Shown here in pieces: positions 25,613 through 46,295 of a DNA stretch of 64,000 bases; the stretch's first letter is position 1, and every line of letters starts with the position of its first letter. This DNA comes from SAR116 cluster bacterium AG-337-N21. GTDB lineage: Bacteria; Pseudomonadota; Alphaproteobacteria; Puniceispirillales; Marisalimonadaceae. A model generated the notes under the pieces. The model searched no databases and was not told where the DNA came from. It saw nothing but the letters and a program-made list of their open reading frames with translations. The stretch is from the NCBI GenBank assembly GCA_003282145.1, contig QBZZ01000006.1, forward strand, positions 30,868 through 94,867, given 5' to 3'. A program made the translations under genes and the position numbers.

Positions 25613-25704
25613 GGAGGGATGGCTGAGTGGCTGAAGGCGCCGGTTTGCTAAATCGTTAAAGGGAGTAATCCCTTTCGGGGGTTCGAATCCCCCTCCCTCC
25701 GCCA
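25613..25704 (+). tRNA. tRNA-Ser (anticodon GCT), encoded CCA
   Basis: GGAGGGA/TCCCTCC acceptor stem, anticodon loop TTGCTAA, long variable arm AGGGAGTAATCCCTTTCG, GGGTTCGAATCCCCC T-arm, CCA end. Confidence 0.97.
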
Positions 25705-25816
25705 TTAAGATAACTTCCTTATGTCATACTATGTCATAAACCTTAGGATACACGGGAAGTTGTTGACGAAGGCTCTTCATACTATTTCATTATAAATCAT
25801 CTTTAATCAAACCAAC

Positions 25817-25840
25817 TTGTGGGCCAAGTTGTAGACCGGA
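25817..25840 (+). repeat. Tandem TTGTRGRCYAA-type motif directly upstream of integrase remnant
   Basis: TTGTGGGCCAAGTTGTAGACCGGA; two tandem half-motifs 6 bp before the remnant ATG. Confidence 0.55.
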
Positions 25841-25846
25841 GATGAC

Positions 25847-25925
25847 ATGAGAAAATTAAATGCAAAACAATTACAAACTTTACCTAATGACAAATATCAT
25901 GATGGGAATGGCCTCACATTGACGC
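25847..25925 (+). pseudogene. Truncated tyrosine integrase N-terminus (DUF4102-type arm-binding domain)
   Basis: MRKLNAKQLQTLPNDKYHDGNGLTL resembles integrase N-termini (LNAK...KYHDGNGLYL); 3' of tRNA-Ser; homology stops where a reversed foreign fragment begins. Confidence 0.65.
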
Positions 25926-26032
25926 AAATTATGGATGGTTTCGCTTTCATCTGTTTCCATATGTTTGCTATAACCAACAATATCCGTTGCAAAGATGACT
26001 GCAATTTTGCGTTCAATTTTTTCCTTAACCAT
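25920..26032 (-). pseudogene. Truncated class III adenylate/guanylate cyclase N-terminal fragment
   Basis: Minus-strand translation from 26032: MVKEKIERKIAVIFATDIVGYSKHMETDESETIHNLR, typical of alphaproteobacterial CYCc proteins; then cut off. Confidence 0.6.
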
Positions 26033-26110
26033 GATTACTCACAAAAATATTTTAACTATTAGATCTTAACCGAAGATAATGGCATCCGTAAAGATACTGT
26101 CCAAATGAAT

Positions 26111-26180
26111 CTACCAAACCAACCCTAAAGGTCCGTGGTCCATGGACCTTGGACCAGGGTTCATTGATGGGTTGGTGGAA
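26111..26180. repeat. Nested inverted repeat / structured palindromic element
   Basis: GGTCCGTGGTCCATGGACCTTGGACC (26130-26155) with 12-bp perfect palindrome GGTCCATGGACC; outer arms ACCAACCC (26118-26125) and GGGTTGGT (26169-26176). Confidence 0.7.
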
Positions 26181-26259
26181 TTGATTAGATATGTTTTTAT
26201 TTGTAACTTGATGATTTATATTTAGGATTATTTATTAAGTAATTTAAGGAGGTAATTTT

Positions 26260-26928
26260 ATGAAAAATTACGATGAGGAGAGATCAGAAAAACTTCTGAA
26301 ATTATATTCTGGTGCAATTACTGACATAATGGACTCAATTAGTCCAGATTATAGAAATCAAACACTTCCGAGTGATCTACGTCCACTAACCTCAAACATG
26401 AAAGTAGCAGGCCCTGTATACACAGTAAGGGGTAATAAAAGATTTTATGATGATGGTCACGATCCAAGATATAAACAAATGGATATGTTAGACGGAATTT
26501 TTCCTGGTAGTATTATTGTAATGGACTCAGGAGATGAAAAATCCGCTGCACATTGGGGTGAACTGATGAGTAAAACTTCAATGGAAAAAGGTTCTAAAGG
26601 TGCAATAATTCATGGGGGTATAAGAGATACTGAAGAAATCATAAAACATGAATTTCCAGTCTTCGCCTGTTATCACTCTCCCTTAACTGCAGTTTATAGA
26701 TATAATATTATAGATTTTAATAATCCTATAATAATTGGAGAGGTTAAAATTAATCCAGGAGATTATGTTTTTGGGGATATAGATGGTGTTATTTGTATTC
26801 CAAAAGAAATTATTGATGATGTAATTAACCAAGCTGAAGAAGTAAAAGAAAAAGAAGATATTGTAAGAGAAGAGCTTTCTGCGGGGAAAAATATTAGAGA
26901 CTTATTTGAAAAATATAGAGTATTTTAG
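26260..26928 (+). CDS. RraA-like/demethylmenaquinone methyltransferase family protein
   Basis: SGAITDIMDSI, AGPVYTVRG, GAIIHGGIRDTEEI, GDYVFGDIDGVICIP; strong SD aaggagg. Confidence 0.85.
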   Translation: MKNYDEERSEKLLKLYSGAITDIMDSISPDYRNQTLPSDLRPLTSNMKVAGPVYTVRGNKRFYDDGHDPRYKQMDMLDGIFPGSIIVMDSGDEKSAAHWGELMSKTSMEKGSKGAIIHGGIRDTEEIIKHEFPVFACYHSPLTAVYRYNIIDFNNPIIIGEVKINPGDYVFGDIDGVICIPKEIIDDVINQAEEVKEKEDIVREELSAGKNIRDLFEKYRVF

Positions 26929-26935
26929 TTAAAAA

Positions 26936-27103
26936 ATGATACCAAATAAAGAACAAAGACAAATAGAATTGCTAAAGATTCTTGCTAAAGGTTGCAAAAA
27001 GCACCCTGCTTATAGAGCTATTAGAAAAGCAACTGAACGTTGCGAAGAGTGTGTGCTTGTTTGGCAAGCTAGAGTTGAGCTTAATAAGCTAGAAGAGAAC
27101 TGA
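26936..27103 (+). CDS. 55-aa small protein, paralogue of 44224-44391
   Basis: MIPNKEQRQIELLKILAKGCKKHPAYRAIRKATERCEECVLVWQARVELNKLEEN; below the 60-aa cutoff of the ORF track; near-identical protein elsewhere in window. Confidence 0.85.
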   Translation: MIPNKEQRQIELLKILAKGCKKHPAYRAIRKATERCEECVLVWQARVELNKLEEN

Positions 27104-27118
27104 GGAGTAATTATAAAA

Positions 27119-28012
27119 ATGACTGATAACTTAGTTCTTAAAGATATTATCAATGCAAAACGAAAAAATCCTTACACAGAAAATAAAACTATAAATCAGT
27201 TGCGAGAAGAAACTACAACTGCGGGCGCTTTAATTCCTTTACCAGAGAATACTAAATTCGAAAGAATACTAGCTGAAAATGTTTACGCAGAATGGATTAC
27301 ATGTGGAGAAGTTGATACTGACAAAACATTCATGTTTATTCATGGCGGTGGATACTATAGAGGCTCAATTGCTGCAACACGTGCAACCGTTGCAAGGATA
27401 TCTGCTGAAGCTAAAGTAAGATGTTTATCAATAGAGTACAGATTAGCTCCAGAACATCCTTTTCCAGCTGCTATTGATGATACATATACAGCTTATAATT
27501 GGCTTATTAAAGAGGGCTTGAAACCTAAAAATATTATTGTTAGTGGGCAATCTGCTGGTGGTGGATTATGTTTAGCATTACTGCTGAAAATCAAAAAAAA
27601 TAAAGGTTTTCAGCCAAAAGGTGCTGTTGCTTTAAGCCCTTGGACAGACCTTTCTCAATCAGGTAAAACGATGATTACGAATGCAAATATTGATCCGGTA
27701 ATTAGTAAAAAATATCTGGATAGAATGGCTAACTTATACCTTTCTAAAACTCCAAGTGATACTCCTTTAGCATCTCCACTTTATGGTAATTTATCTGGTT
27801 TGCCACCTATACTAGTTCAAGTCGGTTCTGCTGAAACGATGTTGGATGATAGTAAAAGATTTGTAGAAAGAGCAAAAGAAGCAAAAGTAGATGTGCAAAT
27901 TGAAGTTTGGAAAGATATGTTTCATGGATGGCATGGAAGCGCACATATTTTAAAAGATGCGGAAGAGGCAATAAAGAGTATAGGATTATTTTGTAGGAAA
28001 TTATTTAATTAA
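27119..28012 (+). CDS. Alpha/beta hydrolase, HSL (hormone-sensitive lipase-like) family
   Basis: FIHGGGYYRGS oxyanion motif, SGQSAGGGLCLA, LSPWTDLSQSG, MFHGWH. Confidence 0.9.
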   Translation: MTDNLVLKDIINAKRKNPYTENKTINQLREETTTAGALIPLPENTKFERILAENVYAEWITCGEVDTDKTFMFIHGGGYYRGSIAATRATVARISAEAKVRCLSIEYRLAPEHPFPAAIDDTYTAYNWLIKEGLKPKNIIVSGQSAGGGLCLALLLKIKKNKGFQPKGAVALSPWTDLSQSGKTMITNANIDPVISKKYLDRMANLYLSKTPSDTPLASPLYGNLSGLPPILVQVGSAETMLDDSKRFVERAKEAKVDVQIEVWKDMFHGWHGSAHILKDAEEAIKSIGLFCRKLFN

Positions 28013-28096
28013 ATAACTTACATGATAAAAAACTTGCAATTTAAACTAATAAAACACAACTTTCCAGTACCCTTAGTACGGTCATAGATGCGCATT

Positions 28097-28121
28097 GGTC
28101 CGTGGTTCTTGGTTCATGGGT
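28097..28121. repeat. Degenerate relative of the 26130 GGTCC element, overlapping recQ stop codon
   Basis: GGTCCGTGGTTCTTGGTTCATGGGT shares GGTCCGTGGT and following positions with 26130-26155. Confidence 0.35.
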
Positions 28122-29937
28122 GCTTTGAGTGCTTGGAAATTAAATCAATAAATATCAAACCATATTTTTTTAATTTTGCTGGCCCTACTCCGTCTATTTC
28201 AAGCATATCTATCTCATTTTTTGGTCTTCTTTGTGACATTTGAATTAATGTACTATCGTGAAATATAGTAAATGCAGGGAGATTTTGTTTTTTTGCAATA
28301 TCTAGTCTTAATGACTTTAGGTTGTTTAACAAAGTACTATCTACGTCTGTTAGATCTCTGTTTAAATATTTTGGAGCTTTAGTATTTTCTTTTATAGATT
28401 TTATAGAAATGTCTTTATACATAAATTTATTTTTATTTTTTAAAACATCAACACCTGTATTAGTAATTTGAATTGCACCGTATTTCTGAAAATTTATTTT
28501 TAAATGCCCATAAGCAAGCATCTGTCTTAGAAATGATTGCCAAAATTCCTTAGATTTGTCATTTCCTATTCCATAAACAGAAAGATTTTGATGACCTTTA
28601 TCAAATACTTTTTTATCCTCTGATCCCCTAAGTACATTAATAATATGAACCTGACCAAAAAACTGACCAGTTCGATATATAGTGGAAAGAAGTTTTTGAG
28701 CCAATATTGTACCATCAATTAGTGCTGGTGGGTTAAGGCAGTTATCGCAATTATTACAATTTTCTGACTTTTCATCAAAATATCCTAATAAAACTTTTCT
28801 ACGACATTCAGGAGTTTCGCAATAAGATAATAAATAGTCTAATCGTTTATTTTCATGAAATTTGAATTTTTCTTCAGAAATGTTTTCATCTATCATTCTT
28901 CTTCTAATAACTAAGTCATCTAAACCATAAATTAACAATGTATCAGATGCTTTACCATCCCGGCCTGCTCTACCTATTTCTTGAGAATAAGCTTCGACGC
29001 TCCCTGGAAGATTTAAATGAATAACAAACCTAATATCTGGTTTATCAATGCCCATTCCAAATGCAATTGTGGCTACAACAATGTGTGCTTGATCAGTCAT
29101 AAATTTGTTTTGTACATTTTTTCTTACTTGACCATCCAATCCTGCGTGGTAGGTGCTAGCGTTGAAGCCTTTATCAATTAAAAATGAAGTGACTTCCTCA
29201 GTTTTTTTCTTTGATAAACAATAAATTATTCCTGATTGAGTTTTTCTTGGATTTAAATATTCAATTAACTGAGCTTTCCAATTTGTTTTTTGACTTATTG
29301 AAAGGCTTAAATTGGGCCTGTCTAGACTTGCAATAAATACTTTAACGTTTTTATTAAATATCTTTTCAAGAATATCTAATCTGGTTGATTTATCAGCTGT
29401 TGCAGTAAACCCAATAATATTGCTATTTGGAAATAATAACTTCAATTTTGATAATGCATTATAATCAGGTCTAAAATGATGGCCCCATTTGGATACACAG
29501 TGAATTTCATCTATGACAAACAGACCTATTTCCATGGTTTTTAAATCGTTAATAATATTTTCTGTCATAAGTCTTTCTGGTGACATATAAATAATTTTTG
29601 AATTTCCATTTTTGAAGTTTTTCCAAGATGTAATTCTTTCGCTATAAGATAAGTCGGAATGAATTTTCTCTGCTTGAACCCCACACTCTTTTAATGCTGA
29701 AATCTGGTCATCCATAAGTGAAATTAGCGGTGAAATAATTATAGTTTTCTTTGAAGAAATAATTGCTGGTATTTGATAACACAATGATTTACCTGCACCA
29801 GTAGGCATAATAGCAAGGGTATGATTTTCAGAGAGAACAGTTTCTATAATCTCTTTTTGCTCATATTTGTATGAGGAGTAGCCGAAAGTGTCACGTAATA
29901 CGTCAAAAGCTTTAGTATTTAATTCATTTATATTCAT
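28114..29937 (-). CDS. recQ: ATP-dependent DNA helicase RecQ
   Basis: MPTGAGKSLCYQIPA, VIDEIHCVSKWGHHFRPDY, ATIAFGMGIDKPDIRFVIH, QEIGRAGRDG, RQC/HRDC-like C-terminus. Confidence 0.93.
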   Translation of the reverse strand: MNINELNTKAFDVLRDTFGYSSYKYEQKEIIETVLSENHTLAIMPTGAGKSLCYQIPAIISSKKTIIISPLISLMDDQISALKECGVQAEKIHSDLSYSERITSWKNFKNGNSKIIYMSPERLMTENIINDLKTMEIGLFVIDEIHCVSKWGHHFRPDYNALSKLKLLFPNSNIIGFTATADKSTRLDILEKIFNKNVKVFIASLDRPNLSLSISQKTNWKAQLIEYLNPRKTQSGIIYCLSKKKTEEVTSFLIDKGFNASTYHAGLDGQVRKNVQNKFMTDQAHIVVATIAFGMGIDKPDIRFVIHLNLPGSVEAYSQEIGRAGRDGKASDTLLIYGLDDLVIRRRMIDENISEEKFKFHENKRLDYLLSYCETPECRRKVLLGYFDEKSENCNNCDNCLNPPALIDGTILAQKLLSTIYRTGQFFGQVHIINVLRGSEDKKVFDKGHQNLSVYGIGNDKSKEFWQSFLRQMLAYGHLKINFQKYGAIQITNTGVDVLKNKNKFMYKDISIKSIKENTKAPKYLNRDLTDVDSTLLNNLKSLRLDIAKKQNLPAFTIFHDSTLIQMSQRRPKNEIDMLEIDGVGPAKLKKYGLIFIDLISKHSKHP

Positions 29938-30158
29938 AGTAAAAGGTTAATGTTTTTGATTTATAATTAATATTTAAAAATCAATAAATTTTTTAATATT
30001 TTTTTAAAGATAGACTTGTAATCAAAATAGGGAAATATTAAGTATCATTTAGGTATTTAATTACTAACTTGTACGCCTCGGCATCCCGCCTAAAATACTA
30101 AAGCAGTGTCCTAAATAACTTCAAATAATTTTAAATTTAATTCTCAAGGATAATAATT

Positions 30159-30647
30159 ATGAATACTATTAAGAAACTATTTTTTGCAATAGCCATGCTT
30201 ATATTACCGTTAGCTGCCAACGCTGACGGCCATGGTACGAAAAAAGATATTGTTGATACCGCAATAGCTAATGGCTCATTCACCACTCTAGTAACAGCTG
30301 TGAAAGCAGCGGGCTTGGTGGACACTCTCAAAGGAAAAGGACCGTTTACAGTATTTGCTCCTACGGATGCTGCTTTTTCCAAGCTTCCTAAAGGAACTAT
30401 AGACAGCCTACTTAAGCCTGAAAATAAGAGTAAACTTGTAGCGATTCTTACACATCATGTCATATCAGGAGCTGTACCTTCTGCAGATGTTATTAGTAAG
30501 AAACTATCCCCCAAAACAGTTAACGGTTCCTCCCTCTCAATTGATGGAACAATGGGAGTAATGGTCAGTGGAGCAAAAGTTATAGCTGCAGATGTAAAAG
30601 CATCCAACGGTATAATTCATGTTATTGATAAGGTTCTTCTGCCTTAA
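30159..30647 (+). CDS. Secreted fasciclin-domain protein
   Basis: Signal peptide; [55 protein letters not shown]. Confidence 0.93.
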
Positions 30648-30684
30648 TTATAAATATTTAAGGATAGTTTTTATCATATTAAAG

Positions 30685-30719
30685 AGAGGTGAATAACAAT
30701 ATTCACCTCTTTTTTTTTT
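30685..30719 (+). terminator. Rho-independent terminator downstream of fasciclin gene
   Basis: AGAGGTGAATA-acaa-TATTCACCTCT (11-bp perfect stem, 4-nt loop) followed by T tract. Confidence 0.9.
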
Positions 30720-30924
30720 GTATATATAAATACTTTCCATTTTGATAAAAGGCTCGGGGTTATGTATATGATAAATAAAATTGAGAAGGTGGTTAGGCCA
30801 GAAGCGAAATGTTCGTAACTCCCATATCTACACTGTGGCGGTAAATGCAACCCAAAAGTTACCGAATGTGTGCAAAGAGCTCCGTATTGAGCCAGATGAG
30901 ACTTAAGCTTTAGTATTTAATTCA

Positions 30925-31305
30925 TTAATTAAATCCACAATGTTGCCTTTTAAACTTGGCACCAAAAGGAGTTAGTGCGTCAATTAAATCTTGTTTAGAA
31001 TTGCCAAAAACTAGCCATTCTTTAAAGTCAACATGTTGCGTTACTTCTTCGGCTATAGGGCTTGACATATGGTTGTTCAAACGTTGCATTGCACCATCAC
31101 TATCAATAAATGACTCTACTAATGTTGCTTCTGAATTATCATCAGACAAATGCCACTCATAACTTATAGTTTTTTCTTCTTTTAAATTAAACACATATTT
31201 TGCAGCACGTTCTTTTGACCATGTTAGAAATTCATTAGCATCAGATTTGATACTACATTGAATGACAAATATTATTCTTTGTGTTTTTGAATTTAATTCT
31301 TTCAT
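30925..31305 (-). CDS. Hypothetical protein, possibly dimeric alpha/beta-barrel (monooxygenase-like)
   Basis: 126-aa ORF; LVESFIDSDGAMQRLNNHMSSPIAEEV resembles ABM-type folds; weak. Confidence 0.45.
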   Translation of the reverse strand: MKELNSKTQRIIFVIQCSIKSDANEFLTWSKERAAKYVFNLKEEKTISYEWHLSDDNSEATLVESFIDSDGAMQRLNNHMSSPIAEEVTQHVDFKEWLVFGNSKQDLIDALTPFGAKFKRQHCGFN

Positions 31306-31440
31306 AATATTATCCTAATTTAATTCAATTTAATCAGATAGGTAAATAATAAATAATAACATATTTGAAGATAAATTATTTATTTATATTTATATTTATA
31401 TTTTATAATCAATAGATATGCTTAAAGTCAGATATATTAT

Positions 31441-32127
31441 GTGGAGAAAATTTGTATGCAAATTGGTTTGATTGGTGGCATTGGGCCTGCTGCAACGGAT
31501 TTTTACTATCGGAGTTTGATAGAAAAATTTGCATCCGAAGAAAAGAATTTGGATATGACAATTGTACACGCGGATGCCCCAACTCTAATTAAAAATTTGA
31601 TGGACGATAACAAAGATGGACAAGTAGCAATCTATAATGATTTAACGCTAAGACTAAAAAAAGCAGGAGCTAACTTTGTCGCTATTACTTCTATCGCTGG
31701 TCATTTCTGTATTGAAAAGTTCAAAGAAAAATCTGTGCTGCCAGTGGTAGACCTTTTGTCCTGTGTGCAAAAAGAAATTAAACGCAGGGGCTATAAAAGA
31801 ATTGGCATCATTGGTACCAAACCAGTTATGGTGTCAAAATTTTATTCAATGATAACATCAGCCGAAGTATTTATGCCAGAGGATAACCTTTTAGATAAAG
31901 TGCACGAAGCATATGCAGAAATGGCAACTTTGGGTCGTGCAAATAATGAACAAAAAGAAATATTTGAAAAAGCATGTAATCAATTTCTTAGTAAGAATAA
32001 GGTCGATGCAATAATGCTTGGAGGGACTGACCTAGCCTTGATTTATCGATCAGACAATGTTGATTTTAAATTAATTGATTGTGCAAAAATCCATGTAGAA
32101 GAATTATTCCGCTTGAATGTCAATTAA
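31441..32127 (+). CDS. Aspartate/glutamate racemase family protein
   Basis: IGLIGGIGPAATDFYYRSLIEKF, VDAIMLGGTDLAL. Confidence 0.88.
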   Translation: MEKICMQIGLIGGIGPAATDFYYRSLIEKFASEEKNLDMTIVHADAPTLIKNLMDDNKDGQVAIYNDLTLRLKKAGANFVAITSIAGHFCIEKFKEKSVLPVVDLLSCVQKEIKRRGYKRIGIIGTKPVMVSKFYSMITSAEVFMPEDNLLDKVHEAYAEMATLGRANNEQKEIFEKACNQFLSKNKVDAIMLGGTDLALIYRSDNVDFKLIDCAKIHVEELFRLNVN

Positions 32128-32168
32128 ATATTTATATCATTAACTTTTATCATACTTTTATTTTTAAA

Positions 32169-33317
32169 ATGAAAATAGACCCTTTTAAAATATCCTATCC
32201 CAAACAAAGAATTGTGGAAATTAAAGAAAAAGTTGAAATGTTTCCATGGCATGAAATGCCTAAAGAAGCTGGCTGGTCTTTTGGAACAAATATAGATTAC
32301 ATGAAGAATTTAGCTGATTATTGGACCAAGAAATATGATTGGGAATCTCAGGAGTACAAATTAAATCAACAGCCTAATTATATTACAAAAGTAGATGATA
32401 TTGATATTCATTTCATTTTTAAAAAATCTTCTTCCCCAAAGGCTATCCCGTTAATTTTAATTCACGGATGGCCCGGCTCAATAGTTGAATTTCTGGAAAT
32501 CATTGAACCACTTTGTGAACCAGAAAAATATGGGAATAAAGACGAAATTTGTTTTGATATTATTGCTCCCTCTATTCCTGGTTTTGCTTTTTCTGGGAAA
32601 CCGGCTAATCCGATTGGACCAAGAAGAATTGCTGAGATTTTTAATAAACTTATGACGGAAAATCTTGGTTATGAAAGATATGTTGCTCAAGGAGGTGATT
32701 GGGGTAGTGCAATTTCTACATGGCTTGGTTTTGATCACTCAAAAAATTGTAAAGGTATTCATATTAACATGCTTCCAGCAAGACATATAGATGGGCCAAA
32801 AACAGAGGAAGAAAAAAGTTGGGAAAAGCAATTTAATTTAGATTATGTCTCTCAAAGTGGATATTTTGCTATACAAAGTACAAAACCTCAAACACTTAGT
32901 TACGCTATGATGGAAAGCCCATTAGGTGTAGCTGCTTGGATAGTAGAAAAATTTTACCATTGGTCTGATTTAAAAGATGGAAGTCTAGATTTGACATACC
33001 AAAAAGACGATTTATTAACCAATATTATGATCTATATTCTAACTAAATCATTTAATACGTCATCTTGGATTTATTACGGCAGAGTTAAAGAAGGAGGACG
33101 AATTCTCTCTAATGATGGCAGAAGGGTGGAGGTTCCAACTGGATGTGCTGTTTATCCAAAAGAGTTTTTATCGTGGCCTCCTAAGTCCTATGTGGAAAGG
33201 CTTTTTAACTTAGTGCATTGGACTGAAATGAACAAAGGTGGTCATTTTGCAGCTCTTGAGCAGCCCTCTTCTCTAATAAAAGACATTCGAGACTTTTACA
33301 AAAAAGTTTGGTTGTAA
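32169..33317 (+). CDS. Epoxide hydrolase family protein (EHN domain + alpha/beta hydrolase); ORF-track start 32079 likely too long
   Basis: MKIDPFKISYPKQRIVEIKEKV N-terminal domain, LIHGWPGSIVEFLEII, AQGGDWGSAISTWLG, GGHFAALEQP. Confidence 0.9.
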   Translation: MKIDPFKISYPKQRIVEIKEKVEMFPWHEMPKEAGWSFGTNIDYMKNLADYWTKKYDWESQEYKLNQQPNYITKVDDIDIHFIFKKSSSPKAIPLILIHGWPGSIVEFLEIIEPLCEPEKYGNKDEICFDIIAPSIPGFAFSGKPANPIGPRRIAEIFNKLMTENLGYERYVAQGGDWGSAISTWLGFDHSKNCKGIHINMLPARHIDGPKTEEEKSWEKQFNLDYVSQSGYFAIQSTKPQTLSYAMMESPLGVAAWIVEKFYHWSDLKDGSLDLTYQKDDLLTNIMIYILTKSFNTSSWIYYGRVKEGGRILSNDGRRVEVPTGCAVYPKEFLSWPPKSYVERLFNLVHWTEMNKGGHFAALEQPSSLIKDIRDFYKKVWL

Positions 33318-33450
33318 GGACAGAATTAACTTAAGGCTTTATAATTGATATCTGGCCATTAGTTAGTTGCCTGGAGGAGCATCTAATTTTTAGGATAAGG
33401 GTAGCTTTTAACATCAAGAATTTTTCAAATCTAAACTAAATTAAAGTAAG

Positions 33451-33494
33451 TTGTAGACTAATTTGTAGACTAAATAATTATTATTCTATAAAAT
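33451..33494 (+). repeat. 44-bp dispersed repeat, copy 1
   Basis: TTGTAGACTAATTTGTAGACTAAATAATTATTATTCTATAAAAT. Confidence 0.75.
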
Positions 33495-33753
33495 CTAATT
33501 AAATCAGATGATTAAAATGAAATAATGAGGAGGTTCCCTCCACCATAATTTATAGAAACGTTTAATATAAACAAATATAAAAATAATCATATGAAACTTT
33601 AAAAAGCTAGCCTAGTTTTTTTTGAGGTTGCCGAACTTATAAAGTGTATTTCTAATTTATATTATTCCTTTTTCATGCAATTAATATATGTATTAATAAT
33701 ATCTTTAAATGTGTAACTAATTATTTTGAAAATATTTAAATTTATATATCTTA

Positions 33754-34825: not shown

Positions 34826-35380
34826 ATGAAAGTTTTTCAAAAATTAGATGATTTTTTGGACTTTGCCTGGGGACAGATTTCTAGGGGAAAGGCTGACAAA
34901 AAATCTCCCGCGAGGCACCCTACTTTTGTGACGTCAAGTGCTGATGGTTTTCCAAATGCTCGTACTTTAGTGATGAGACGGAGCGATAGGAAAAATAACC
35001 AAATAGAGTTCCACACTGACACCGCTTCTTCAAAAATGTTGGTCCTCGAGGAGAACCCACGAGCTGGAATTCACATTTGGCTGCCAAAAGTTCAATTACA
35101 AATTCAGATAGAAGTTGTTGTTGAAGTGAATGTTGGCGACATTATCATTCCAAACTGGAAAAATGTTCCAACTAGCTCTAGGACCGCTTATGGAACTATT
35201 CCTAGCCCTGGTACCGTCATTGGAAGCTCCCATGCCTATGATTATGCCCCAGATCATAAACGTTTTGCCGTTTTGGTATGTCATATACAATCAATTCAGC
35301 TTCTGCTTTTAGGCGCTAAACATACTCGTGCTTATTACAAAAATACTACTAATTGGCAAGGAGAATGGTTATCTCCTTAA
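34826..35380 (+). CDS. Pyridoxamine 5'-phosphate oxidase family flavoprotein
   Basis: PARHPTFVTSSADGFPNARTLVMRRSDRKNNQIEFHTDTASSK, HTRAYY...WQGEWLSP. Confidence 0.85.
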   Translation: MKVFQKLDDFLDFAWGQISRGKADKKSPARHPTFVTSSADGFPNARTLVMRRSDRKNNQIEFHTDTASSKMLVLEENPRAGIHIWLPKVQLQIQIEVVVEVNVGDIIIPNWKNVPTSSRTAYGTIPSPGTVIGSSHAYDYAPDHKRFAVLVCHIQSIQLLLLGAKHTRAYYKNTTNWQGEWLSP

Positions 35381-35381
35381 A

Positions 35382-35425
35382 TTGAAGACTAATTTTTAGA
35401 CTGAAAGATTGTTTTTCAATAAAAT
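35382..35425 (+). repeat. 44-bp dispersed repeat, copy 2 (begins 1 bp after a stop codon)
   Basis: TTGAAGACTAATTTTTAGACTGAAAGATTGTTTTTCAATAAAAT, gap-free with copy 1. Confidence 0.65.
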
Positions 35426-35499
35426 ATGATGATTATTATAGAATAACAAAAAAATACTCTCTATTTTAAATTCAGAAAATATTGTAATTTCTGCAAAAC

Positions 35500-37445: not shown

Positions 37446-37488
37446 TTTTAGACTAAATTATGGATTGAATAAATATTATTCTAAAAAT
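37446..37488 (+). repeat. 44-bp dispersed repeat, copy 3 (diverged)
   Basis: TTTTAGACTAAATTATGGATTGAATAAATATTATTCTAAAAAT; similarity with copy 1 seems to extend through AATTAAATC..ATGA. Confidence 0.5.
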
Positions 37489-37540
37489 TAATTAAATCGA
37501 ATGAGAAAATATTGTTACTCTTGAAAAGAAAGGTTATCTA

Positions 37541-43555: not shown

Positions 43556-44200
43556 ATGCAAATGTATTATGAAACAAATAAAAATGATCACGGATTACCT
43601 TACAACCCTTTCAAAGCTCTAACAGTTCCGCGTCCAATTGGGTGGATTAGTACAGTAAGTAAAAATGGCATAGGAAACCTTGCACCATATAGTTATTTCA
43701 ATGGACTTTCTTATGATCCTCCATTTGTAATGTTCTCAGCTGGCAATCGTGCAGATGGAAGTAAGAAAGATAGTGTTTTAAATGCTGAAGAAACAGGTGA
43801 ATTTGTGGTTAACATGAGCACCTGGGACACACGTCACCAAATGAATGATACAAGTTGGATAATGGAACCAAATACAGATGAATTAGAAAAAACTGGTTTA
43901 ACCGCTATAGATTCATTCGAAGTAAAGCCAAAAAGAGTTGCAGAGTCTCCTGTGCATTTTGAGTGTAAATATCACCAAACAGTTAAACTTCCAGGAAAAG
44001 GAGGTTTGCACAACGTTGTATTTGGACAAGTTATTGGTATTCATATCAAAGATGAATTTATAACTGATGATGGGATAGTTGATACGCTAAAAATGAAGGT
44101 TATCGCTCGATTAGGTTACAATGACTACACTTTAGTAGAGAAAACTTTTTCAATTATTGACTTCAAAGATAAAGGAAAAATGACAAAAAGTTGGAGATAA
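43556..44200 (+). CDS. Flavin reductase family (FMN-binding split barrel) protein
   Basis: ALTVPRPIGWISTVSKNGIGNLAPYSYFNGLSYDPPFVMFSAG, GEFVVNM. Confidence 0.9.
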   Translation: MQMYYETNKNDHGLPYNPFKALTVPRPIGWISTVSKNGIGNLAPYSYFNGLSYDPPFVMFSAGNRADGSKKDSVLNAEETGEFVVNMSTWDTRHQMNDTSWIMEPNTDELEKTGLTAIDSFEVKPKRVAESPVHFECKYHQTVKLPGKGGLHNVVFGQVIGIHIKDEFITDDGIVDTLKMKVIARLGYNDYTLVEKTFSIIDFKDKGKMTKSWR

Positions 44201-44223
44201 TAATAAAACTGTAAGGAAATAAT

Positions 44224-44391
44224 ATGATTGATCATAAATTAGAAAGACAAGTGGTATTACTTAAGATACTTGCTAAAGGGTGTAAAAAGCACCCTGCTTA
44301 TAGAGCAATTAGAAAAGCTACTGAACGATGTGAAGAGTGTGTGGTTATATGGCAAGCACGTGTTGAACTTAATGAAATAGAAACAAATTAA
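44224..44391 (+). CDS. 55-aa small protein, paralogue of 26936-27103
   Basis: MIDHKLERQVVLLKILAKGCKKHPAYRAIRKATERCEECVVIWQARVELNEIETN; SD aagga upstream; core block differs from paralogue only by synonymous changes. Confidence 0.87.
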   Translation: MIDHKLERQVVLLKILAKGCKKHPAYRAIRKATERCEECVVIWQARVELNEIETN

Positions 44392-44436
44392 TTTGCAGAC
44401 TAAACTGTAGACTGAATAATCATAATTCTATAAAAT
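44392..44436 (+). repeat. 44-bp dispersed repeat, copy 4 (begins at stop codon of 55-aa ORF)
   Basis: TTTGCAGACTAAACTGTAGACTGAATAATCATAATTCTATAAAAT; about 38/44 with copy 1 by hand alignment. Confidence 0.75.
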
Positions 44437-44478
44437 ATTATTATCATAAATTTAAAATAAAGTAAGGCAAATATAAAG

Positions 44479-46143
44479 TTGGATTCAATTAATAATATTC
44501 CAGATAGTAAAGGGGCCAACGCATATCATAGAGATAAATCTTTTTCAAAATTATTAGAATTCTATAGTGGGAAAGATATGTTATCTAAAATAGAAAGTCA
44601 GTTTATAGAGCTAGGAGAAATTGTAGGCAATCAATTAGAAGATTTAGCTTTAACTGCAGACAAAAACTCACCAAAACTTTCTAAAAGAGCTAGGGACGGT
44701 TCTTTTACTAATACAATTGAAAAACATCCAGACTTTATAAAATTAGAAAAATATGCATTTGAAAGATTTGGATTAGCAGCTATGTCTCATAGGCATGGAG
44801 TTTTTGGAATGCAGCAGAAACTTCCACCAATAGTGAAATATGGATTGACTTTTTTATTTGTTCAAAGTGAATTTGGTTTATGTTGTCCATTAAGCATGAC
44901 AGATTCCCTGACCAGAACTTTAAGAAAGTTTGGAGACAACAAAATAGTTGATAAATTTATTAATCAATTAACATCTCAAAATTTAGATGAACTCTTTCAA
45001 GGTGCAATGTTTATGACAGAACAGCATGCTGGTTCTGATGTTGGATCAATTGACACTTATGCTGAAAATATAGATGGACAGTGGTATCTTACAGGAGACA
45101 AGTGGTTTTGTTCTAACCCTGACGCTGATCTTGCTATGGTTTTAGCTAGATACGATAAAAATATAAGTGGTACTAAAGGACTTGCTCTATTTCTTCTACC
45201 TAAAAGACTAGATTCTGGAAAACTTAATAGTTACGAAATAATAAGATTAAAAGATAAGTTAGGTGGAAGATCATTTGCAAGTGGAGAAATTAGACTTAAT
45301 AAAGCTTCAGCTTATATTGTTGGAGATCCCCAAAAAGGTTTTAAACAGATGACAGACATGATTAACATGTCAAGATTATCTAATGGCGTTAGAGCATCTG
45401 GAATGATGCAAAGGTGTCTTCAAGAAAGCCTTTTTATATCAAATACACGTTATGCATTTAAACAAAAATTAATTGATATTCCTTTGATGCAGAAGCAACT
45501 GCTGAAGATGCTTATAATTACTGAGGCATCAAGATCAATGGTATTCAAAGCATCGGAACTCCTAGAAAAAGCTGATAATGGAGATAGTATATCACAGAAT
45601 ATTTTCAGAATTATTACTCCATTGATTAAGTTCAGAGCTTGTAGAGATGTAAGAAAAATTGCAGGCGATGCTATGGAAATTAGAGGTGGATCAGGTTATA
45701 TCGAAGAGTGGCTTGATCCAAAAATTCTAAGAGATTCTCACCTTGGTTCTATATGGGAAGGAACAAGTAATATTATATCTTTAGATACTATACGAGCTTT
45801 AAAAAAAGATAATAATATAGAAACTTTAAAATACTATCTAATTCAAGTTGTACAAACGACAAAAAAAAATGAACATACAGAAAACTTATTATGTGCAATA
45901 GATAATGTTTTTAGTTTTGTAAGAACAGAAATACAAGAGGATTTCACATCTTCTTCAAGAAAAATATCTTCTTCACTATACTATTTATGTGCATCTATCT
46001 TTTTAAATTCTGAAGGACAATACTGTAAAAGTTTGGCTAATAGGAAAAAAATAAGTGAATTGCTTATTAAATATAAAATTAATCAAAATAGCCCTCTTGA
46101 AAGAGACAATTTAGATTTTGATTTAATCTGTCAATTTATTTAA
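44479..46143 (+). CDS. Acyl-CoA dehydrogenase family protein
   Basis: FMTEQHAGSDVGSIDTYAE, WYLTGDKWFCSNPDADLAMVLAR, MEIRGGSGYIEEW, LGSIWEGTSNIISLDTIRA. Confidence 0.92.
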   Translation: MDSINNIPDSKGANAYHRDKSFSKLLEFYSGKDMLSKIESQFIELGEIVGNQLEDLALTADKNSPKLSKRARDGSFTNTIEKHPDFIKLEKYAFERFGLAAMSHRHGVFGMQQKLPPIVKYGLTFLFVQSEFGLCCPLSMTDSLTRTLRKFGDNKIVDKFINQLTSQNLDELFQGAMFMTEQHAGSDVGSIDTYAENIDGQWYLTGDKWFCSNPDADLAMVLARYDKNISGTKGLALFLLPKRLDSGKLNSYEIIRLKDKLGGRSFASGEIRLNKASAYIVGDPQKGFKQMTDMINMSRLSNGVRASGMMQRCLQESLFISNTRYAFKQKLIDIPLMQKQLLKMLIITEASRSMVFKASELLEKADNGDSISQNIFRIITPLIKFRACRDVRKIAGDAMEIRGGSGYIEEWLDPKILRDSHLGSIWEGTSNIISLDTIRALKKDNNIETLKYYLIQVVQTTKKNEHTENLLCAIDNVFSFVRTEIQEDFTSSSRKISSSLYYLCASIFLNSEGQYCKSLANRKKISELLIKYKINQNSPLERDNLDFDLICQFI

Positions 46144-46155
46144 CTATTTGCAAAA

Positions 46156-46203
46156 TGGTAGACTAATTTGTGGACTTCACAATTATAATTTTTAAACAAA
46201 ATG
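46156..46203 (+). repeat. 44-bp dispersed repeat, copy 5
   Basis: TGGTAGACTAATTTGTGGACTTCACAATTATAATTTTTAAACAAAATG; 12 bp after acyl-CoA dehydrogenase stop. Confidence 0.6.
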
Positions 46204-46295
46204 ATATTAACACTAATTTTTTTTACTATATTTATTGTGATCAAATAATTAAAAAACTAATATCGAATTCAAATAAAAAAAGGATTTAGATAATT

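Follow-up and report, generated by a model that had tools for sequence, protein, structure and literature searches.

The small gene at positions 44224-44391 of the window, a 64,000-nucleotide stretch of DNA from the SAR116 cluster bacterium AG-337-N21, probably encodes a phage-type CHCC mini-protein carried as cargo on a tRNA-Ser island, and this protein is most likely a nucleic-acid-binding accessory factor. This assessment, held with moderate confidence, covers mainly the family, its selection and decay, its viral relatives and the association of repeat, integrase and tRNA, plus the metal site; the nucleic-acid role, taken alone, has a little under an even chance. The gene, hereafter copy B, and its immediate surroundings are as follows:

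43556..44200, + strand: flavin-reductase-like gene (Pfam PF01613), ~23-nt gap upstream of copy B
44213..44217, + strand: Shine-Dalgarno sequence AAGGA, 6 nt 5' of the ATG, read from the sequence and kept in locus-B orthologues
44224..44391, + strand: coding sequence of copy B, a 55-residue CHCC-motif protein; open reading frame, translation and coordinates exact
44281..44340, + strand: C20xxH23 ... C36xxC39 core, candidate zinc ligands from family alignments

The original prediction of a 55-residue reading frame with its own Shine-Dalgarno sequence is borne out, and so is its assignment to an unannotated family: sequence searches of Pfam, NCBIfam, PADLOC and the PDB returned no family for the small protein, and Foldseek reports no significant fold match in the PDB or among viral models. 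The predicted CxxC is present, but as one half of a CxxH-x12-CxxC motif and not as a lone CxxC. With a family profile (A1) built from 25 members, 34 of 151 relatives proved to carry the small gene, including 18 of the 40 genomes of the same genus (SAR116 cluster); the family is patchy across the order, and an even draw of the class gave three matching genomes besides the source genome. The core reads C20xxH23P-x-Y26...C36xxC39xxxW43, with four candidate zinc ligands. Residues C20, H23, P24, A25, Y26, R27, A28, R30, A32, C39 and W43 are invariant in A1, and C36 is nearly so. AlphaFold2 predicts two helices (residues 3-18 and 37-54) flanking a loop (pLDDT 89.8), and residues 19-39 of this loop comprise six K/R and three D/E. 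Judging from these conserved positions, C20, H23, C36 and C39 would together bind zinc.

Regarding the genomic neighbourhood, a flavin-reductase-like gene is paired with a copy-B-type gene in ~10 genomes, and the two are likely co-transcribed. The order at locus B is flavin-reductase-like gene, small gene and then, in some genomes, an acyl-CoA dehydrogenase. Elsewhere in the order the neighbours of the small gene are unrelated; family members are flanked by many different genes, and no neighbour is conserved across the whole family. A second copy, copy A, lies upstream in the window between two genes of its own:

26260..26928, + strand: RraA-like gene (PF03737), directly upstream of copy A
26936..27103, + strand: coding sequence of copy A, 80% amino-acid identity to copy B
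27119..28012, + strand: alpha/beta hydrolase gene (PF07859), directly downstream of copy A

Copies A and B are the sole two copies in the available genome (82% complete), and their DNA similarity (81% over 26933-27094 and 44221-44382) covers the reading frame and almost nothing beyond it. The synonymous codon differences first noticed between them are real, since 33.7 synonymous sites hold 18 changes and 131.3 nonsynonymous sites hold 16 (dS 0.94, dN 0.13, dN/dS ~0.14; Fisher p ~2e-6), and over residues 12-46 dN/dS is 0.04 (dS 0.89, dN 0.038). Comparisons of diverged loci mostly give ratios of 0.06-0.26, a range that supports a real protein family under long-term purifying selection. For copy B itself, however, the purifying selection originally claimed is not supported, as selection there looks relaxed: the five closest, near-identical locus-B alleles give dN/dS of 0.4-1.3 where dS is not zero, two of these five (G012 and G021) have an in-frame TGA at C20, and another (G015) carries C36Y. 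If TGA were read as selenocysteine, the two interrupted copies would be intact, and both codons indeed coincide exactly with a ligand cysteine, and the frame continues open beyond them; this reading is nevertheless barely conceivable and was rejected, since what matches tRNA-Sec best is ordinary tRNA-Ser(UGA), and TGA is for that reason taken as a stop. The same alleles have moreover lost H23 (G012) or W43 (G021). In-frame stops occur in 12 of 53 family places, and further places are truncated. Copy B may be redundant with copy A in the source genome. Low long-term dN/dS together with the decay of the B alleles thus points to a small gene that is selected over the long run but readily lost. 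Of separate note, one relative (G347, L035 3267-5078) has the order flavin reductase, small gene, hydrolase, and its small gene has an apparently B-like 5' end and an A-like 3' end, a difference that is not significant (Fisher p 0.11-0.23); the arrangement is suggestive of crossing-over inside the small gene that linked locus B to locus A.

Viral relatives were sought by scanning viral contigs with a DNA pattern for C-x2-H-P-x-Y-x9-C-x2-C-x3-W, the control being a spacing one residue longer (10). The pattern occurs in 68 viral contigs, all of which give a peptide, for a total of 55 distinct proteins, against four for the control spacing. Positions outside the pattern are also conserved in the viral set (P13 in 48/55, A/G/V9 in 49/55, R11 in 29/55), and copy B fits the viral proteins at such positions (shuffle p 0.0009), as does copy A (p=0.0025), while the similarity is weaker for a distant alphaproteobacterial member, G162 (p=0.10). 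Hhalign reports a profile-profile probability of 98.5% between A1 and the viral set, and this value, like the conservation figures, is inflated because seven motif positions served to select the viral members. A phage tblastn search with a consensus query gave no match; in another tblastn search Salicola phage SCTP-2 gp398, which carries the motif, reached E 0.04, and phrog_26717 matches weakly (best E 0.006). A match to a Delftia phage (H3) was spurious. The 80 viral neighbour genes include those of a DNA polymerase, a ligase, UvsX, Sak4, an HNH protein and an integrase; the named families among them belong mainly to replication, recombination, integrase and nuclease functions, and since each occurs in just 1-2 of the 80, there is no fixed viral partner. 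The SAR116 branch was found in bacterial contigs alone, and none of the viral contigs has a gene closely related to it, so that it may descend from phages, may have passed from host to phage, or may go back, like the phage genes, to an older common origin.

The phage-type core and its position beside phage replication genes would also suit a take-over or anti-defence protein retained by the host as protection against superinfection, and the patchy, multicopy and high-turnover distribution, with copies A and B both on islands, agrees with such a role. This explanation has a low but appreciable probability, as the protein has no PADLOC family and the copies stand beside metabolic and not defence genes. 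A broader version, in which a phage-wide zinc mini-protein of replication or take-over was captured by SAR116 on tRNA-Ser islands and serves phage protection or the control of island recombination, we consider decidedly unlikely.

The favoured reading of the small gene as island cargo draws on the element that surrounds copy A, the island location of the family having been examined for members from the genus. Its landmarks are:

25613..25704, + strand: tRNA-Ser(gct), the island anchor (ARAGORN, Rfam)
25819..25837, + strand: GTGGGCCAAGTTGTAGACC, integrase-proximal form of the repeat; the same element precedes intact integrases
25847..25929, + strand: stub of a tyrosine-integrase N-terminus (MRKLNAKQLQTLPNDKYHDGNGLTLTQ), whose leader DNA matches intact DUF4102 integrases, e.g. 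L260
33527..33545, + strand: att-like copy of the tRNA-Ser 3' end, GAGGAGGTTCCCTCCACCA (1 match, 0.00 expected in shuffles)

This ~7.9-kb element (25613-33545) comprises the tRNA, the double GTRGRCY word, the integrase stub, the cargo, repeat copy 1 and the copy of the tRNA-Ser end. The hallmark of such an island is a tRNA gene at its one border with the 3' end of that gene duplicated at the opposite border, and the element shows both features. The cargo includes the RraA-like gene, copy A, the hydrolase, a RecQ-type helicase and others. The helicase (28114-29937, - strand) scores 709 bits against the PADLOC DpdF model, a score that an ordinary RecQ may reach likewise. The element has no intact integrase, the N-terminal stub at 25847 standing alone, and the source genome has a DUF4102 integrase frame of 246 codons at another place (G000 C20). 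From this layout, copy A appears to sit inside the 25.6-33.5 kb element and copy B to be the last gene before an end marked by repeat copy 4. Integrative elements seem to have accreted in tandem at tRNA-Ser, probably through integrase-driven mobility. The repeat occurs five times in the window:

33445..33500, + strand: repeat copy 1
35375..35432, + strand: repeat copy 2
37446..37493, + strand: repeat copy 3 (weak)
44388..44442, + strand: repeat copy 4, tandem GCAGACT/GTAGACT with a 12-bp period, an orphan, integrase arm-like distal end
46150..46204, + strand: repeat copy 5

As first described, the stop codon of copy B (44389-44391) abuts repeat copy 4. Using nhmmer and a sequence-only covariance model, the 44-bp repeat was found in 31 of the 40 genus genomes, in 1-6 copies that are usually clustered and same-stranded. 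Its core consists of two GTRGACY words 12 bp apart, and the double GTRGRCY word precedes DUF4102 integrases, which in many cases follow a tRNA-Ser gene; of 30 loci, 8 have a perfect word (14/14) before the integrase and others a near-perfect one. A tRNA-Ser 3' end follows the repeat at 34-53 bp in 21 of 47 distinct copies (mononucleotide-shuffle p <=0.01 each), among them repeat copy 1 and the one behind the G021 orthologue of copy B (L031), and none follows repeat copy 4 in the window. Around repeat copy 4, a terminator search found none and promoter-like matches occur at the shuffled rate; the repeat may have a promoter role. In view of the integrase and tRNA association, the repeat looks like an integrase arm-like sequence that closes tRNA-Ser integrative elements on their distal side, and the integrase would bind there.

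Three further observations concern the repeats. Other DUF4102 integrases of the genus (L258, L275, L261, L266, L267) have their own 12-bp-period double words (TTGTGGGACAAATTGTGGGACA, TGTGGGGTATTTTGTGGG), which suggests subfamily-specific sites. In four genomes (L240, L239, L233 and L245 of G005, G011, G018 and G019), a 204-residue isochorismatase/nicotinamidase-like gene lies between same-stranded repeats ~745 bp apart, a segment that resembles a single-gene cassette. Lastly, in G021 (L031 4165-4460, compared with window 44391-46200) the acyl-CoA dehydrogenase that separates repeats 4 and 5 in the window has given way to ~120 bp, including a degenerate tRNA-Ser end, with breakpoints inside both repeats.

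Within the family, the repeat adjoins only locus-B orthologues (G000, G031, G015, G012 and G021, with a degenerate form in G035, G003 and G006), so that the expectation of homologues generally followed by it fails: copy A and all other members are without it. The repeat looks like an island end-marker and is not part of the small gene. A single small mobile unit made of gene and repeat and inserting behind stop codons, as the abutment of copy B on repeat 4 and the many different neighbours of the family might suggest, is very improbable given the members outside locus B, the many repeat-bearing genus genomes devoid of the small gene and the lack of any visible terminal repeats or transposase. 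Of the proposal that the two moved together, what stands is a possible joint entry as part of one element: at locus B both belong to the distal end of a single tRNA-Ser element and could therefore have entered together. The same position, combined with the small size and the basic loop of the protein and with viral relatives that in some cases adjoin recombination or integrase genes, raises the alternative that the protein serves the tRNA-Ser integrase islands as a recombination directionality factor or accessory factor and binds the arm-like repeat. This is quite improbable, as most family members are not beside the repeat, genomes of the genus show no apparent correlation between having the small gene and having a DUF4102 integrase, and the AlphaFold2 model has no winged helix-turn-helix, whereas recombination directionality factors are described as commonly winged helix-turn-helix proteins in PMC11963761.

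The reading of copy B as phage-type island cargo would run as follows. Copy B would be a chromosomal member of the phage-type CHCC mini-protein family, built of an N-terminal helix, a basic ligand loop and a C-terminal helix. The small gene would be accessory cargo of tRNA-Ser-anchored, DUF4102-integrase islands, arriving with island segments, the repeat beside copy B being the distal, arm-like end of such a segment. It would often settle in a read-through position behind unrelated metabolic genes, stay under purifying selection for as long as it is useful, and then be lost copy by copy. The binding partner of the protein is most likely nucleic acid or a nucleic-acid enzyme, and the protein would act as a small regulator or accessory factor; mobilisation by the integrase and a benefit to the host are presumed. 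A widespread phage small-protein module, which is not in Pfam or NCBIfam and is weakly matched by PHROGs, is thereby found in bacterial chromosomes under selection, and a formerly unexplained repeat becomes a marker of the starts and ends of SAR116 genome islands. Such a marker would let the flexible gene content of these abundant, hardly cultured bacteria be read from fragments.

Compared with the phage-type C-x2-HPxY-x9-C-x2-C-x3-W module, the small protein shares the ligand pattern with its exact spacing, the basic loop and an aliphatic residue before the W, and some viral members are equally short with a helix-like stretch ahead (L181, 50 residues); the SAR116 branch differs in being chromosomal and usually without P at core position 13. 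TraR/DksA-type small zinc proteins (PMC9239242) are likewise carried by mobile elements, and the likeness of the small protein to them is one of analogy. No TraR/DksA profile of Pfam matches the small protein at E up to 1, and the CxxH-x12-CxxC ligand pattern of copy B sets it apart from these proteins. As for the islands, they resemble tycheposons (as in PMC10872708) in being tRNA-bordered, in their tyrosine recombinase and cargo and in their occurrence in streamlined aquatic bacteria, and differ by the tRNA-Ser anchor and a DUF4102-type recombinase. The additive flexible genomic islands of Methylophilaceae, with their recurring tRNA 3'-end repeats (PMC10872708), are similarly composed of segments marked by tRNA 3'-end copies and holding variable cargo; theirs, however, are associated with tRNA-Lys, whereas those of SAR116 use tRNA-Ser and bear the double GTRGRCY integrase-associated motif at each end.
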